A DNA stretch of 64,000 nt from Mycetocola manganoxydans (GTDB lineage Bacteria; Actinomycetota; Actinomycetes; Actinomycetales; Microbacteriaceae), in NCBI RefSeq assembly GCF_003667545.1, contig NZ_RCUV01000006.1:124001-188000 (forward strand), given 5' to 3'. Position 1 is the stretch's first letter; each line of letters begins with the position of its first letter. Positions 2,466 through 46,641 of this stretch are shown here, piece after piece. The notes below the pieces were generated by a model. That model was not told the DNA's origin. It saw only the letters and a program-made list of their open reading frames with translations, and did no database searches. The position numbers were made by a program, and so were the translations under genes.

Positions 2466-3529
2466 ACGGGGTCGACCGAGCTGCCCCGCTCGTTCTCGGG
2501 ATCGAGACGTCATGCGACGAGACCGGGATCGGCATCGTCAGGGGGCGGTCGCTGCTCAGCAACACCATCGCGTCGTCGATGGACGAACACGCCAGGTACG
2601 GCGGCGTCGTCCCCGAGGTCGCTGCTCGAGCCCACCTCGAAGCCCTCGTGCCCGCACTCACCGCCGCTGTAGCCGAGGCGGGAATCACGCTCGACGAGCT
2701 CGACGCCATCGCCGTGACATCCGGTCCCGGCCTGTCCGGTGCGCTCATGGTCGGTGTCGGGGCGGCGAAGGCGCTCAGCGTGGCTCTCGACAAACCGATC
2801 TATGCCGTGAACCACCTCGTGGGCCACGTCGGTGCAGACATCCTCGACGAGTCAGGGACACCGTTCGAGTACCCGACCATCGCCCTTCTCGTGTCGGGAG
2901 GGCACACCTCGCTGCTCCTCGTCCGCGACCTCGTCAGCGATGTCGAACTGCTCGGCGAGACCATCGACGACGCGGCGGGGGAGGCTTTCGACAAGGTCGC
3001 ACGCCTCCTCGGGCTGCCGTACCCAGGCGGCCCGGAGATCGACCGGCTCGCCGCCGTCGGCAATCAGACGGCGATCCGGTTCCCCCGTGGGCTGACGCAC
3101 CCCAAGGACATGGCGAAGCACCGCTACGATTTCTCCTTCTCCGGGCTCAAGACATCGGTCGCGCGGTGGGTCGAGAAGCAGCAGGACCTCGGCAACGAGG
3201 TGCCGGTGGCGGATGTCGCGGCGAGCTTCCGCGAAGCGGTCGCGGACGTGCTCCTCACCAAAGCGATAGCGGCCTGTGCCGACCACGGCGTGCCACGCCT
3301 CCTCCTCGGCGGTGGCGTCGTGGCGAACGCCCGGGTGCGTGAACTGGCCGCCGAGCGGGCCGCGGCAGCCGGAGTCGCGCTGCGCATCCCGCCGCTGTCG
3401 CTGTGCACGGACAACGGAGCGATGATCGCCGAACTCGGCGCGCAGCTGATCATGGCGGGCCATGCGCCGTCGACGCTCGACTTTCCTGCCGACTCCACGC
3501 TCCCTGTCACCGAGATCCAGGTGCACTGA
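2462..3529 (+). CDS. tsaD: tRNA N6-adenosine threonylcarbamoyltransferase TsaD
   Basis: Catalytic subunit transferring threonylcarbamoyl from its AMP ester to A37 of ANN-decoding tRNAs. GTG 2462 overlaps the rimI stop (GTGA); 355 aa, normal length. It opens with [16 protein letters not shown]. The metal-binding HLVGH gives His118 and His122, and [11 protein letters not shown] supplies the third ligand. The nucleotide-binding [10 protein letters not shown] is present. Last gene of the alr-tsaEB-rimI-tsaD run; about 200 non-coding bases follow. Confidence 0.97.
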
Positions 3530-3652
3530 ACGTCCGACGGATCGGGCGTTGCTCGGTCGACACCGGTTGATGCCGCCGCCGGAAATCCGCCAATACCGAC
3601 GGAGCAATATACCGGATGCGGCGCGCATCCGGATTCACCCGAATCCTCGCGA

Positions 3653-3658
3653 TAGGGT
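3653..3658 (+). promoter_or_regulatory. Possible -10 box for the DUF4190-type gene
   Basis: TAGGGT lies in the 200-base gap after tsaD, about 70 nt before the next start codon; no convincing -35 is visible. The rest of 3530-3729 shows no ORF or strong hairpin. Confidence 0.3.
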
Positions 3659-3729
3659 GTCACTCTGGATGCCCGCTGACGCCGTCGGGGGTGCCACCGG
3701 CTCAGTGCTTCGGCGACAGGAGAACCTCA

Positions 3730-4407
3730 GTGACAGACCCCCAGCGCCCCGAGGATCTGCCGGAGCGCCCGCCGCTTCCGCCCCGGACCGCTCCTGGCGC
3801 GGGCGAGCAGCAGTCGCCGCCCGCACCGGCACCGTATCCCGCCCAGACACCTCCGCCGAACCCGTACGGCCAGGCTCCGACCGGACGGCACGCCCCCCAG
3901 GCGCCACCCGCCCACACCGAGTTCGCACCGCCCAGCTCGCCCGGTTTCGGGCCACAGGGCTCCCCGGTCGCGCCGACGCCACCAGCCCAGCAGGGACCGT
4001 ACGGACAGCCGCCACAGCACCAGCAATACCCCCAGCCACAGCCACAGCCTGAGTACGGGCAGCAGGCCAACGGCCAGCCCGCGTACCCGGCTGCCGGTGC
4101 CGCGCACCAGCAGCCCTACCCCGCTGCCGCCCCCGTCCCCGCGTCCACGCCGGCCCAGCCGGCATCCCGGCTGGGTACCACCGGGGTCGTCCTCGGCAGC
4201 ATCGGAGTGCTCGGCGGGATCATCTTCGGCTGGACCCTGCCGCTGTCGATCGTCGCCATCGTCCTCGGGTTCATCGCGCGGTCACGGGAACCACATGCCC
4301 GTGGTGTCGCCCTCGCCGCCATCGTCACCGGAATCATCGGACTCCTGCTGTCCGCGGGCTGGCTGGCGTACAGCATCATCACCTGGCTCGCCCTGACGAG
4401 CTCCTAG
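3730..4407 (+). CDS. DUF4190-type membrane protein with Pro/Gln-rich N-terminus
   Basis: Cytoplasmic-membrane protein of unknown function, 225 aa from GTG 3730. The start is set by AGGAG at 3718-3722, 7 nt upstream; the frame stays open further up but without a ribosome-binding site. Residues 1 to about 145 are a low-complexity Pro/Gln/Ala/Tyr tail, probably disordered. The last 80 residues hold two or three hydrophobic helices (LGTTGVVLGSIGVLGGIIFG; PLSIVAIVLGFIARSRE; GVALAAIVTGIIGLLLSAGW), the DUF4190 pattern. A hydrophilic Pro-rich tail joined to a small membrane domain is common in actinobacterial envelope proteins; no activity can be read from it. Confidence 0.8.
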   Translation: MTDPQRPEDLPERPPLPPRTAPGAGEQQSPPAPAPYPAQTPPPNPYGQAPTGRHAPQAPPAHTEFAPPSSPGFGPQGSPVAPTPPAQQGPYGQPPQHQQYPQPQPQPEYGQQANGQPAYPAAGAAHQQPYPAAAPVPASTPAQPASRLGTTGVVLGSIGVLGGIIFGWTLPLSIVAIVLGFIARSREPHARGVALAAIVTGIIGLLLSAGWLAYSIITWLALTSS

Positions 4408-37785: not shown

Positions 37786-39063
37786 ATGAACCGCACAACA
37801 GTCGCCATGCTCGCCGCGCTCGAGGCGCTCATCACCGTCGCCATCGGCATCGGTATCTCCCTCGTGCCCCTCACCATCCTCTGGGCTGTCGAAGCGGGGT
37901 TCTCGCTCGACTGGACGCTGTTCTGGCAAGGCGCCGTCGACATCTGGCTCCTCAGCAACGGCGTCGACCTCTCGGTGACTCTGCCTGCCGAGGTCGTCGC
38001 GGCCACCGGTCTCGCTGCGGCGAGTGATCCGTTTCCCGTGACGATCGCGCCGCTCGTCCTCACCGGGTTCACCGTGATCATGGGAGCCCGCGCCGGCATC
38101 CGCGCGGCCGCGACGCGCTACTGGCAGACCGCCGTTCTCTCCGGACTCGTCACCGTGCTCGTCCTCAACGCGCTCGCGGCATTCAGTGCACAGGGCGAAC
38201 TTCTCCGGCCATCGCTCCCGCAGGCGCTTCTCCTGCCGCTGCTCGTCTACGGATTCGGCCTCGCCATCGGTGTCGTCCGAGGAATGCACCGGATCCCGGT
38301 TGGCCGCGAAGGAGCGGCCGGGCGGTTCCTGGCCGGGATACAGGATCGCCTCGACGAACGCTTCGACCGCACCGACCGGGCCGTGGCCGCCGCCGCACTC
38401 CGGGGTGGCGTCGCCGCTGTCACGGGAATCGTCGGCGTCTCTGCGGTGCTCTTCGCCGTTCTGATCCTCGCGAATTTCGGTGTGGTGACGAGCCTGTACC
38501 AGGGGTCTCAGCTCGGAGGGATCGGTGGAGCGGCGACGACGCTCGCGCAACTGGCGTTCATCCCCAACCTCGTACTCTGGGCCGCCTCCTGGCTCGTCGG
38601 CCCCGGATTCGCGCTCGGAGCAGGCAGCGCGATCTCACCGGTGAACACGGTCGTCGGGCCTGTGCCGGGGCTGCCGATCCTCGGTGCGATCCCCAGCGGG
38701 GACTTCGCATTCGGATTCGTGGGTCTGCTGGTCCCGGTCCTGATCGGTTTCTTCGCGGCATCTCTCGTTCGCCCCCGCCTTGTCGCGGCTCTCGCGGGGC
38801 GGCCGCTCGTCGCCCGGCTTCTCATCGCTGCAGCGGGGATCGGCCTGGTCGCCGGGGTGATTCTCGGACTCCTGGCCTGGTTCTCCGGTGGTGCGATCGG
38901 CCCCGGACGGCTCGCCGTCGTCGGCCCGAACCCGGTCCTGGTCGGCGCCTTCTGCGCCATCGAGGTAGCGATCGCGGCCGCGATCGGCATGGCATCCGGA
39001 AACACCCGGCGCGAAGCGGCCCCCGCGGCCTCCCCGTTGAGGACCGCGGAACGAGTGCGGTAG
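37786..39063 (+). CDS. DUF6350 (PerM-like) membrane protein
   Basis: 425 aa polytopic membrane protein with about ten hydrophobic segments and an alternating Gly/Ala-rich character. The actinobacterial family lies just upstream of purN, as here; its mycobacterial relative PerM is connected with cell division and persistence. A TAAACT box ends 9 nt before the ATG, so the leader is very short. No catalytic motif is seen. Confidence 0.85.
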   Translation: MNRTTVAMLAALEALITVAIGIGISLVPLTILWAVEAGFSLDWTLFWQGAVDIWLLSNGVDLSVTLPAEVVAATGLAAASDPFPVTIAPLVLTGFTVIMGARAGIRAAATRYWQTAVLSGLVTVLVLNALAAFSAQGELLRPSLPQALLLPLLVYGFGLAIGVVRGMHRIPVGREGAAGRFLAGIQDRLDERFDRTDRAVAAAALRGGVAAVTGIVGVSAVLFAVLILANFGVVTSLYQGSQLGGIGGAATTLAQLAFIPNLVLWAASWLVGPGFALGAGSAISPVNTVVGPVPGLPILGAIPSGDFAFGFVGLLVPVLIGFFAASLVRPRLVAALAGRPLVARLLIAAAGIGLVAGVILGLLAWFSGGAIGPGRLAVVGPNPVLVGAFCAIEVAIAAAIGMASGNTRREAAPAASPLRTAERVR

Positions 39064-41352: not shown

Positions 41353-41358
41353 TAGGCT
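41353..41358 (+). promoter_or_regulatory. -10 box of leaderless dimethylargininase promoter
   Basis: TAGGCT, 7 nt before ATG 41366. Confidence 0.55.
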
Positions 41359-41365
41359 GAAGCCC

Positions 41366-42580
41366 ATGACACTTTCGTGGGGCCGCCGGCTCGTTTCCTC
41401 GTTCCTGGCCGCCCTGAGCGTTGCCGTCCTCACCCACGCCGCGAGCGTCTTTCTGTTCTTCGTCTCGCAGCAGTATCAGCCGACGACGCTGCCCCAGGTC
41501 AGCGACTTCTACTTCCTCGCCACGCTGTTCTCGATCGTCCTGCTCGTCGTCTTCGCTCTGATCGGCGGCTTCACTCGCTGGTACACGGCGCTCGCCTCCG
41601 GGTTCTTCACAGGCATCGTCGCGTGCCTCGTCGGCACCGGGATCTCCACCGTTGCCCAGGGGTTCGCGATCGACGCTGACACCATCTCCTACCTGTGGGG
41701 CACGTTCCTGACCCTCAATGGCGTCTACGTCGTCGTCGCATCGATCCTCGCGGCGACCGTCGGCCGCGCCGTCTACAACCGGGTGATCGGCTTCCGGCGC
41801 GGAACCGAGAAGAGCGCCGAGCGTCGCATCGCTCTCGTCCGGATGCCGGCCGGGAACCTCGCCGAAGGACAGCTCACCCACCTCGAACGCACCGCCGTCG
41901 ACACCGAGCTCGCTGACAAGCAGTGGGACGGCTATGTCGCCGCCCTCGAGAACAACGGCTGGACGACACGCGAAGTACCGTTCGCTGACACTCTGCCGGA
42001 CTCCGTTTTCGTCGAAGACACCCTCGTGCTGCTCGGGAACACCGCCGTCGTGACGCGCCCGGGAGCCAAGAGCCGCCGGGAAGAAAACGACGCCGCAGAG
42101 CAGACCGCCCAGGACCTCGGGCTCTCGATCGAACGCATCATGAGCCCAGGCACCCTCGAGGGCGGCGATGTGCTCAAGGTCGGTTCGACCCTGTACGTCG
42201 GCCGGTCAAGCAGGACAAACGCAGACGGCATCCGTCAACTGCGCGCCATCGCCACCGGGCTGGGATACACGGTCGTCGTCGTTCCGGTCACCCGTGCCCT
42301 GCATCTCAAGACAACGGTCACCGCTCTGCCGGACGGCACCATCCTCGGGCACCGGGATCTGGTCGACGACCCAGCATTCTTCCCGCACTTCGTCGAGGTC
42401 CCTGAGCGGGAAGGCGTCGCCGTCGTCGTGCTCAGCGAGGACACGCTCCTCGTCTCAGCTTCAGCGCCGGGAACGGTCGCCCTTCTCGAGGATCGCGGCT
42501 ACACCGTTGTTCCCGTCGACATCAGCGAGTTCGAAAAGCTCGAGGGATGCGTGACCTGCCTCTCCGTACGGGTGCGATAG
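41366..42580 (+). CDS. Membrane-anchored dimethylargininase (DDAH) fusion
   Basis: 404 aa in two parts. Residues 1-140 have four hydrophobic helices (about 8-33, 48-69, 71-99, 108-136). Residues about 150-404 are an amidinotransferase-fold DDAH: FVEDTLVLLGNTAVVTRPG (215-233), LEGGDVLKVG with Glu265, ALHLKTTVTALPDG with His313, and the C-terminal GCVTCLSVR with Cys398. These give the Cys-His-Glu set for hydrolysing methylarginines to citrulline. Bacterial DDAH is normally a soluble enzyme of about 255 aa, so the anchor is the odd part. Activity is likely, substrate preference inferred. Confidence 0.88.
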   Translation: MTLSWGRRLVSSFLAALSVAVLTHAASVFLFFVSQQYQPTTLPQVSDFYFLATLFSIVLLVVFALIGGFTRWYTALASGFFTGIVACLVGTGISTVAQGFAIDADTISYLWGTFLTLNGVYVVVASILAATVGRAVYNRVIGFRRGTEKSAERRIALVRMPAGNLAEGQLTHLERTAVDTELADKQWDGYVAALENNGWTTREVPFADTLPDSVFVEDTLVLLGNTAVVTRPGAKSRREENDAAEQTAQDLGLSIERIMSPGTLEGGDVLKVGSTLYVGRSSRTNADGIRQLRAIATGLGYTVVVVPVTRALHLKTTVTALPDGTILGHRDLVDDPAFFPHFVEVPEREGVAVVVLSEDTLLVSASAPGTVALLEDRGYTVVPVDISEFEKLEGCVTCLSVRVR

Positions 42581-42949: not shown

Positions 42950-44827
42950 ATGTCTCGTCACCCTGACGACAAGAAGTCCCACCAGTCCGAGCTGTCGACC
43001 GCTCGAGCGCTCTGGCGGATCCTGCCGTACGCCCGCAAGGCACTGCCGCGCATCTCGCTCGGCATGGCCGCTGCCCTTGCGGCCGGTCTCGTGGCTCTCG
43101 GTATCCCGCTGATCCTCGAGAGCCTCGTCGACGGGCCGCTCTCGACGGGAGACACCTCCCAGATCTGGTGGGCGGTCCTCGCTGTGCTCGGTCTCGGTGT
43201 GCTCGAGGCGGCGATGATCGCGTTACGCCGGTGGTTCGTGCTCAAGCCGGGCACCTACGTCGAAGCCGGAATGCGCAACGCTCTCTACGCCAGGCTGCAG
43301 GACCTGCCGGTGTCGTTCCACGACCGGTGGCAGTCCGGCCAGCTGCTGTCGCGTGCCGTCAGCGACCTCAACCTGATCCGGCGCTGGCTGTCTTTCGGTC
43401 TCGTGCTCCTCGTCGTGAATGCGGTGACCGTCGTCATCGGAGCCGTCGTGCTGTTCTACTGGCACTGGCTGCTCGGACTGATCTTCCTCGTCCTCGCCGT
43501 GCCGATCTGGATCTACGGCTTCGTGTTCGAGAAGAAGTACTCGATCATCGCCCGTCGCAGTCAGGACCAGGCGGGCGACCTCGCGACCGCCGTCGAGGAA
43601 TCGGTTCACGGCATCCGGGTGCTCAAGGCATTCGGACGCGGCACGTACGCCCTGCGCAATTTCGAATCCCAGGCGGAGAGCCTGCGCGGAACGGAGATCG
43701 AGAAAGCCAAGGCGATCGCCGGGATCTGGCTCTGGCTGCTGTTGCTGCCCGACGTTGCCTTCGCGCTGTGTCTGCTGACCGGCGTCTGGCTCGCCTCGAC
43801 CGGTGAGATCACCGTCGGGCAATTGTTCGCGTTCTTCGCGACGGCGACGGTGCTGCGCTTCCCGATCGAGTCGATCGGTTTCCTCCTTTCGATGACATTC
43901 GACACGCGCTCAGCCACCGACCGTTTCTTCGAGGTCCTCGACACCCCGAACACGATCACCGATCCCGAGAACCCCACGACGATCGCCGACGTCCGCGGGC
44001 GTCTCAGTTTCGAGAACACCCACTTCCGGTACCAGGACTCTCCCGCGGATGTCCCCGACCTCCTGAACGGCGTGACACTGACGCTCGAGCCGGGGGAGAC
44101 CATGGCGCTTGTCGGGCTCACCGGATCGGGCAAGTCCACGCTGACCGCGCTCACCACCCGCTTGTACGACGTCACCGGTGGCGCTGTGACGCTCGACGGT
44201 GTCGACGTCCGCGATCTCACACGGGATGAACTCCGCAGGCACATCGCGATGGCGTTCGAGGACGCGACGCTGTTCTCGGCATCCGTTCGCGAGAACATCC
44301 TTCTCGGTCGAGGCGACCTCGACCCGAACAGTGCAGAAGCGAACGCCGTGCTCGACGAAGCACTCGACATCGCGCAGGCGAACTTCGTGCGCGATCTACC
44401 CGACGGCGTCGAGACGACGGTCGGTGAAGAAGGGCTGAGCCTCTCCGGCGGCCAGCGCCAGCGACTCGCCCTCGCCCGTGCTGTCGCGGCGAAACCTGCC
44501 GTGCTCGTGCTCGACGACCCGCTCTCAGCCCTCGACGTCGACACCGAAGCGCTCGTCGAGGCCGCGCTGCGGCGTGTTCTCGCCTCGACGACAGCGCTCA
44601 TCGTCGCACACAGGCCATCGACGGTGATGCTCGCCGACCGGGTGGCGCTCCTCGAGAACGGCAGGGTGACGGCTGTCGGACGGCACAGTGAGCTTCTCCT
44701 GAGCAGCGAGCACTACAAATTCGTGATCTCGAGTCTCGAAGACGAAGAACGGCGCGAGGCCGCGGAGAAGATCGACAAGACTCTCGACGAGGCCGCGAAC
44801 ACAGACACCGTGGAGGCGGGAGCATGA
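42950..44827 (+). CDS. ABC exporter half-transporter, degenerate-site subunit
   Basis: 625 aa: six-helix type IV (exporter type I) membrane domain (about 30-320) and a C-terminal ATPase. Walker A is GLTGSGKST (389-397) and the signature LSGGQ is intact (498-502). Walker B is [11 protein letters not shown], with Asp523 where the catalytic Glu is expected, and the Q-loop has Glu437 in place of Gln (AFEDATLF). So its own ATP site should be non-hydrolytic, as in BmrC/TM287-type subunits. ATG 42950 has AGGAAG upstream. Overlaps the next gene by 4 nt. Confidence 0.93.
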
Positions 44828-46641
44828 GCACCAGCACAGTTTCTGGAGTCGAGGGCGAGGAACGCGACGACTTCACCAAGCAGGAAAGCGCACAGATCCG
44901 TTCCCGGTCGCTCCGGCTTCTCGGGTCCCTTCTGCTCCCGCTGCGGCTGCGTGTCGTTCTGACGATGCTCGTCGTCGTGGTGTCCACGGCATCGCAAGTG
45001 GCAGGCCCCGCGCTCATCGCGTTCGGCATCGACCGCGGCCTGCCCGCGGTGCTCGAGCGGAATGACTGGATGCCAGCGTCCCTGATCGTCGGCCTCTACC
45101 TGATCACGGGTGTCATCGGTGCCGGGCTCATGGCCTGGTACACGGTCCTCAGCGCGAGGATCAGCCAGGCCATCCTCATCGATCTCCGCAAGCGAGTGTT
45201 CCTGCACACCCAGCGCCTGAGCCTCGAGTTCCACGAGAGCTACACCTCCGGCCGGATCATCTCGCGCCAGACGAGCGACCTCGACGCCATCAAGGAACTC
45301 CTCGATTCTGGCATCAACCAGCTCGTGTCCGGGTTCCTCTTCATGCTCTTCACGGGGATCGCGCTGTTCCTCATCGACGGCACAAGCGGGCTCGTCCTGC
45401 TCGGAGCGCTCGTCCCGCTGTACTTCCTCACCCGCTGGTTCCAGAAACGATCCCAGACGCTGTTCCGGCAGTCGCGCGTGGCATCCGCCAAGGTGATCGT
45501 GCAGTTCGTGGAGACGATGACCGGCATCCGTGCCGTGAAGGCGTTCCGCAAGGAGAAGCGCAACGAGAAGCAGTTCGGGCAGCTCGTCGAGAACTACCGC
45601 GACGTCAACGCCCGGGTGATCCAGCTCTTCGGCGTCTTCGACCCCGGACTCGTCCTCATCGGCAACGTCGCTGTCGCCACTGTTCTGCTCGTCGGCGCCT
45701 TCCGGATCGTCGACGGCTCGCTCGCGATCGGCGCGCTCCTCGCGGTCGTGCTGTACACCCGCCGGTTCTTCGACCCGATGGAGGAGATGGCGATGTTCTA
45801 CAACTCCTACCAGTCGGCTGCCGCCGCGCTCGAGAAGATCTCGGGTGTGCTGGAGGAGAAGCCGACGGTGCCTGACCCGGCCGAACCCGTCGACCTGTGG
45901 AAGGCACGCGGTCACGTCAACTTCGACAACGTGACGTTCGCATACAAGGGAGACCAGGTCGTGCTCCCGAATTTCACCCTCGACATGCCGGCCGGGCAGA
46001 CCATCGCCCTTGTCGGGTCGACAGGAGCGGGCAAGTCCACGCTCGCGAAGCTCATCTCGCGGTTCTACGATCCGACGGAAGGCTCCGTCACCCTCGACGG
46101 CGTCGACCTGCGCAAGCTGCACCCCAAGGATCTTCGGCGCGCGATCGTCATGGTGACACAGGAGGCCTACCTGTTCTCCGGTTCGGTGGCAGACAACATC
46201 GCGATCGGCAAACCGGATGCCACGGCGGACGAGATCACGGCGGCCGCGAAGGCGGTCGGTGCCGACGAGTTCATCCGTTCGCTTCCGAACGGGTACGACA
46301 CCGACGTCAACAAGCGCGGAGGGAGGGTGTCGGCCGGCCAGCGCCAGCTCATCTCGTTCGCCCGTGCGTTCCTCGCTGACCCGGCTGTGCTCATCCTCGA
46401 CGAGGCGACGGCGTCGCTCGACATCCCGAGCGAGCGGCTCGTGCAGGAAGCGTTGCAAACCCTCCTCGCCGATCGCACCGCCGTGATCATCGCGCACCGG
46501 CTGTCCACCGTTGCCATCGCCGATCGGGTGCTCGTGATGGAACACGGCCGGATCGTGGAGGACGGGACGCCGCGTGACCTCATCGCGGGAACGGGACGGT
46601 TCGCACAGTTGCACGCCGCCTGGCGGGATTCACTGGTCTAG
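44824..46641 (+). CDS. ABC exporter half-transporter, catalytic-site subunit
   Basis: 605 aa, ATG 44824 overlapping the previous stop (ATGA). Membrane domain about 40-335, then an ATPase with Walker [12 protein letters not shown]-loop VTQEAYLF, Walker [12 protein letters not shown] with the catalytic Glu527. Its signature is changed to VSAGQ (502-506). Together with the partner's intact LSGGQ it completes one active site, while the other site is degenerate. This is the typical asymmetric heterodimer of drug- or lipid-type exporters. The substrate cannot be read from sequence. Confidence 0.93.

Follow-up and report, generated by a model that had tools for sequence, protein, structure and literature searches.

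Why should a dimethylargininase (DDAH) be joined to a set of membrane helices? The question is raised by one gene in the window analysed here, a stretch of 64,000 nucleotides from the genome of Mycetocola manganoxydans, in which a membrane domain and a catalytic domain share a single reading frame (Table 1). A first-pass annotation, made from the sequence alone, had placed the enzyme at the membrane and had suggested that it acts on arginine derivatives entering or leaving the cell.

Table 1. Positions in the window of the fused gene, its parts, its active-site residues and its neighbours.
Feature	Position	Strand or side	Basis or remark
Whole fused gene, 404 aa, membrane domain + dimethylargininase	41366..42580	+	ATG start, complete ORF
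TAGGCT, -10-like box, leaderless-type start	41353..41358	+	7 bases 5' of ATG
Membrane helix 1, residues 5-35	41378..41470	+	AlphaFold2 models
Membrane helix 2, residues 39-65	41480..41560	+	AlphaFold2 models
Membrane helix 3, residues 72-97	41579..41656	+	AlphaFold2 models
Membrane helix 4, residues 104-146, break at residue 116 beside Asn118	41675..41803	+	AlphaFold2 models
Linker, about residues 144-153	41795..41824	+	residues 144-150 with pLDDT <50 in the whole-protein model
Dimethylargininase catalytic domain, residues 154-404	41825..42577	+	NF045660 above cut-off; Foldseek 3rhy
E217 and D218 of FVED	42014..42019	+	align with E65 and D66 of Pseudomonas DDAH
E265, third triad member	42158..42160	+	aligns with E114 of Pseudomonas DDAH
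H313, catalytic His	42302..42304	+	aligns with H162 of Pseudomonas DDAH
C398, catalytic Cys	42557..42559	+	aligns with the C249S site of 1h70
Two ABC exporter half-genes sharing 4 bases at their junction	42950-46641	downstream	Pfam
DUF6350 membrane protein, 5' of purN-purH, in recurring gene order	37786-39063		Pfam E 2.7e-76

Taken by itself, the catalytic half belongs to a known family and is unremarkable within it. Residues 156-403 match the NCBIfam dimethylargininase model NF045660 over profile positions 2-249 of 249, with 378.2 bits against a cut-off of 340, and the enzyme domain matches the solved structure 3rhy with a Foldseek E of 1.0e-22 and a TM score of 0.91 by target. In the alignment to Pseudomonas DDAH, from which the residue numbers of 1h70 were read after a shift of one, all of the active-site positions are present (C398, H313, E265, E217, D218, D212, R237 and R283); C398, H313 and E265 take the places of the catalytic triad, and the other acids and the arginines those of the binding site. 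The full-length match above the cut-off and the aligned triad bear out the complete Cys/His/Glu enzyme that had been recognised downstream of the helices.

The four N-terminal helices were likewise recovered, both in the AlphaFold2 models and as hydrophobic segments (residues 15-33, 48-66, 75-93 and 110-128), with the correction that they end near residue 146 and not at 140, the enzyme domain starting at about residue 154. While the whole-protein model has a mean pLDDT of 93.3, its pTM is 0.64, so the relative placement of the two domains is unsure; the membrane domain modelled alone reaches a pLDDT of 94.9 and a pTM of 0.87. The position of Asn118, at the helix break, is near-invariant, 91 of the 103 distinct active fusions having this residue there. 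Attachment to the membrane is a prediction well supported by the model, the hydrophobicity, the family-wide conservation and the start-site evidence given below.

A known family, or a transporter or sensor fold, was sought for the membrane domain in Pfam, NCBIfam, Foldseek and VIA-align, and none was reached. The best Pfam match of the window protein's membrane domain scored 15 bits against a gathering score of 29.4, and the other 43 members, judged by E-value, matched 13 Pfam families in total, each with at most two members and a best E of 0.0018. NCBIfam gave no match of note for the domain, Foldseek none among solved folds at E 0.001, and the best VIA-align Z against solved folds was 6.0; no solved fold stood out as a significant match. 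This lack of a clear match is not proof of a new fold, because a simple four-helix bundle can hide relatives.

Searches of related genomes allowed us to assess how widely the fusion is kept. The whole protein found matches in 250 of the 398 genomes of a Microbacteriaceae sample at E 1e-15, and the membrane domain in 219, every one of which also had a DDAH match; among the matches listed, the frames carrying the domain were 398-1167 residues long, or 345 for G260. This recurrence confirms that the fusion is a real gene and not a chance frame. In 31 of the 250 genomes the membrane domain was not matched, in at least one case (G026) owing to a contig end. In a phylum sample the whole protein matched 70 of 396 genomes, only three of which, all Microbacteriaceae, spanned the whole membrane part, and a few others began at model positions 105-137. 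Searched for by itself, the membrane domain turned up in 3 of 296 genomes of the phylum, all in the family, and in 12 of 297 genomes of the order at E 0.001; eight of these twelve were strong, all in the family, and the other four, plus a second match in G000, were weak and partial. Both samples include the family, and the searches scored only the best first-look candidates; in neither of them (297 and 296 genomes) was there a convincing copy outside Microbacteriaceae. The membrane domain thus appears to be family-specific, found nowhere else in our samples and kept across much of the family. The suggestion of the first-pass annotation that the same helices might be found with other enzymes yielded no convincing example in the family, order or phylum samples.

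After seven duplicates had been dropped, 155 distinct sequences remained, comprising 104 fused, 41 standalone (one of them cut by a contig end) and 10 dead enzymes. The Cys, the His and the acids of FVED are kept in 103 of the 104 non-dead fusions and in all 41 standalone sequences. The exception, G260 (L143, L182), has its fused frame split in the middle of the enzyme domain, through a fault in the assembly or because the gene itself is disrupted. Among the best 80 of 528 named loci, the nearest relative is that of Mycetocola zhadangensis, with 64% identity. In loci of Streptomyces, Nocardioides, Nakamurella, Leucobacter and Cryobacterium the enzyme appears to stand alone, start codons being found immediately in front of its domain. 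Standalone DDAHs, among them those at the same locus in Cryobacterium, show that the enzyme can do without the anchor. As a tentative reading of the fusion tree, we prefer one gain of the anchor followed by several losses.

The most valuable part of the analysis, absent from the first-pass annotation, is that the membrane domain is also kept with a dead enzyme. The catalytic Cys is replaced in 10 of the 162 loci checked, namely in G012 (L018, genus g8) and in nine loci of genus g20 (L020, L137, L139, L141, L142 and L144-L147), by Arg in nine of the aligned sequences and by Ala in one. E217 is lost in all ten and the His in nine (L137 keeps it), and D218 is kept throughout. In an eleventh copy, G021 (L176, genus g17), the membrane domain is kept (E 1.4e-37), the enzyme domain has shrunk to about half and no such Cys is found at the C-terminal end. 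All eleven catalytically dead copies are of the fused form. The four of the ten loci that were scanned with NF045660 fall below its cut-off, at 237.7 (L018), 194.7 (L020), 152.9 (L144) and 135.8 bits (L147). When 15 chosen sequences were searched with a membrane profile from which the dead copies had been left out, it still matched L018 (E 4e-41), G021 (3e-40) and the g20 proteins (1.5e-24 to 1.6e-10).

All nine g20 loci are open frames. Synonymous sites are near saturation and dN/dS values therefore rough, being 0.09-0.58 for the dead enzyme domain and 0.12-0.93 for the membrane domain over 36 g20 pairs, and 0.08-0.27 for the enzyme and 0.15-0.50 for the membrane domain over 15 Mycetocola pairs; in g20, constraint looks stronger on the dead domain than on the membrane half. 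A single shared origin of the dead copies was considered and set aside: the first tree united them in one group (one change, support 68), with a warning that L018 and g20 may be joined by their long branches, and in a tree without g20, L018 stood next to its active congener G117, with a branch length of 1.21 and outside every starred set. The trees did not include G021. Catalytic residues have been lost in three genera, and three separate losses is our reading; that the fused form has three such events and the standalone form none is suggestive, not statistical proof. Replacement of the dead copies by an enzyme of the Mycobacterium tuberculosis (Mtb) type was ruled out for g20 (none of nine genomes) and for G021; G012 has such an enzyme. 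Two g94 genomes that we tested also lack the Mtb-type enzyme and carry an active fusion. In g20, G012 and G021, where the anchor and a remodelled domain stay together, catalysis is dispensable.

We favour, with moderate confidence, a membrane-tethered dimethylargininase on the inner face whose anchor is also a docking or scaffold module. The four-helix domain would tether an active, Streptomyces-type dimethylargininase to the inner surface of the cytoplasmic membrane, the Cys-His-Glu hydrolase would work in the cytoplasm, converting Nw-methylated arginines (or close relatives) to citrulline and a methylamine, and the membrane domain would place the enzyme, or its dead version, beside a membrane partner. 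Architecture, active-site residues, likely start site, distribution and catalytic-residue loss were computed; the topology, the substrate and the scaffold role are inferred. Family-wide retention, the near-invariant Asn at the helix break and persistence with a dead enzyme suggest that the membrane domain probably does more than ride along, and is engaged in docking to a partner or in sensing. Such an extra role is also suggested by the anchor being dispensable for the enzyme, and catalysis in g20, G012 and G021. Counting against this explanation are the weaker constraint on the membrane domain than on the enzyme, the g20 membrane values of up to 0.93, the standalone Cryobacterium enzymes, the soluble Mtb-type copy in the same genome (see below) and the pTM of the full model. 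Regarding the earlier interpretation, location at the membrane holds up, and a role on arginine derivatives entering or leaving the cell is neither supported nor excluded; such a role does not predict that catalytic residues would disappear from proteins that retain the anchor.

Possible, though not probable, is that the membrane domain itself works as a sensor, channel or carrier, to which the DDAH-fold domain serves as ligand binder or gate, catalysis being secondary and losable. Three genera that lost the Cys yet kept the membrane domain (nine g20 loci, G012 and G021) speak for this alternative, as do the constraint on the g20 dead domain with an Mtb-type replacement in none of nine genomes, and the well-kept membrane domain of G021 beside about half an enzyme. 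It fits poorly with active-site residues kept in every non-dead fusion except one broken frame, with the lack of any genome among 219 that has the membrane domain and no DDAH match, with the membrane domain being the less constrained half in g20, and with the failure to match a transporter or sensor fold. We would also call unlikely the idea that a dimethylargininase was domesticated by a membrane receptor or gate, in which the DDAH fold, attached to the four-helix functional core, would sense or buffer a guanidino ligand at the membrane and would have become a pure ligand-binding pseudoenzyme in several genera.

We consider it quite unlikely that the helices are a plain membrane anchor without functional weight and the dead copies decaying genes. 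The nine open g20 frames, with dead domains at dN/dS 0.09-0.58, and the retention of the membrane domain in 219 of 398 family genomes argue against it, in spite of the 31 DDAH-matching genomes without a membrane-domain match (at least one, G026, explained by a contig end), the lower conservation of the membrane domain than of the enzyme, its dN/dS of up to 0.93 in g20 and the missing half of the G021 enzyme. A further point in favour of decay is that the -10 box described below is present in only one of the ten dead loci, so their promoters differ or have decayed.

The inner-face placement in our preferred explanation comes from the distribution of charge. Counted over 109 active fused loci, which include some near-duplicate genomes and the frame-broken G260, the mean number of Lys and Arg residues is 2.01 in the N-terminus, 0.16 in loop 1, 1.33 in loop 2, 0.26 in loop 3 and 2.77 in the tail preceding the enzyme. 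Because this fits the positive-inside pattern, both ends of the membrane domain are predicted to be cytoplasmic (N-in/C-in), with the enzyme facing the cytoplasm, which gives a predicted answer on the orientation that the first-pass annotation had left undecided. A catalytic domain outside the cell, acting on arginine derivatives in the medium, would fit the earlier idea of traffic across the envelope; we found no support for it and the pattern places the C-terminal tail in the cytoplasm, making it very unlikely.

A -10 box about seven bases before an ATG has the spacing of a leaderless actinobacterial transcript. Of the 103 distinct active fusions, 89 (81 of them with ATG) have TANNNT at 3-9 bases from a candidate full-length start, and the motif stands at this spacing before 239 of 18,724 ATGs (1.3%) in the same loci, rates that are not strictly alike as several candidate starts were allowed per fused locus. 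Some start codon lies within residues 138-155 in 67 of the 103 fusions, and in none is it preceded by a -10 box. An internal start near residue 145 as the only one used had been named as the observation that would undo the fusion; from the boxes, 0 internally against 89 at the full-length start, a sole internal start is unlikely. Indeed, an internal start giving a soluble enzyme and an untranslated membrane frame is hardly credible in the face of these counts and of the Mycetocola membrane-part dN/dS of at most 0.50, even with the internal start codons, the standalone relatives and a Shine-Dalgarno-like word in 11 of 103 fusions before a start in residues 138-155 versus 2 of 103 at the full-length start.

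The neighbours scanned comprise a formyltransferase (purN), purH, DUF6350, a SulP-type permease and the two halves of an ABC exporter, with no evident arginine transporter among them. The best 80 of 528 named loci include 66 fused and 14 standalone ones: 47 of the fused have purH upstream and an ABC gene downstream, 10 only the ABC gene and 9 only purH, the first ABC exporter half-gene following 57 of the 66; three standalone loci have both neighbours, two only the ABC gene and nine neither, and the five with such a neighbour are all Cryobacterium. At the Cryobacterium psychrotolerans locus (L108), an ORF of Glu/Leu/Phe/Val dehydrogenase type (Pfam; 2734-3882) lies between purH and the standalone enzyme. 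The ABC pair is beside the dead gene of G012, one ABC gene is found about 3.5 kb on in G021, and the sequence retrieved around three g20 loci (G024, G374 and G235) contains no such pair, which is therefore not an obligatory partner. The genome from which the window comes also encodes a second, Mtb-type dimethylargininase without the membrane domain (L179; G000:C28:118023-118856, minus strand; 443.7 bits, cut-off 300), and the fused enzyme may therefore do something else.

Compared with known systems, the fusion has the same catalytic domain as the Streptomyces-type dimethylargininases of NF045660, a model without the membrane part. It shares its fold (TM 0.90-0.91 by target) and aligned active-site residues with Pseudomonas aeruginosa DDAH (1h70, 3rhy and 3bpb), whose solved chains of 254-255 residues are as long as the enzyme domain of the fusion alone. 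The Mtb-type dimethylargininases (NF045659) belong to the same superfamily and to a separate family, against which the fusion scores 63.4 bits for a cut-off of 300. In the literature searched, consisting of titles and the openings of abstracts with few subscription journals, we found no report of a membrane-bound DDAH. If our explanation is true, a membrane-bound form of dimethylargininase has been retained in a large part of one bacterial family, and the two halves are naturally separated in both directions, as an active enzyme without the anchor and as an anchor with a dead enzyme, so that the purpose of bacterial DDAHs could be tested by simple swaps.

There is precedent for a DDAH fold that has lost its catalysis. 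RESC5 of Trypanosoma brucei (8dpk), a component of the kinetoplastid RNA-editing complex, has this fold with the catalytic Cys and His changed to Ala and Pro (PMC9980740). It matches the fusion with a Foldseek E of 8.5e-12 at only 16-17% identity, and it is a precedent for the fused copies with a dead enzyme domain. Human DDAH2 is a DDAH homologue reported not to metabolise dimethylarginine and not to keep the catalytic Cys (PMC10256801). The fused proteins of Microbacteriaceae would, if our reading is true, add a bacterial case to the inactive DDAH-fold proteins RESC5 and DDAH2.
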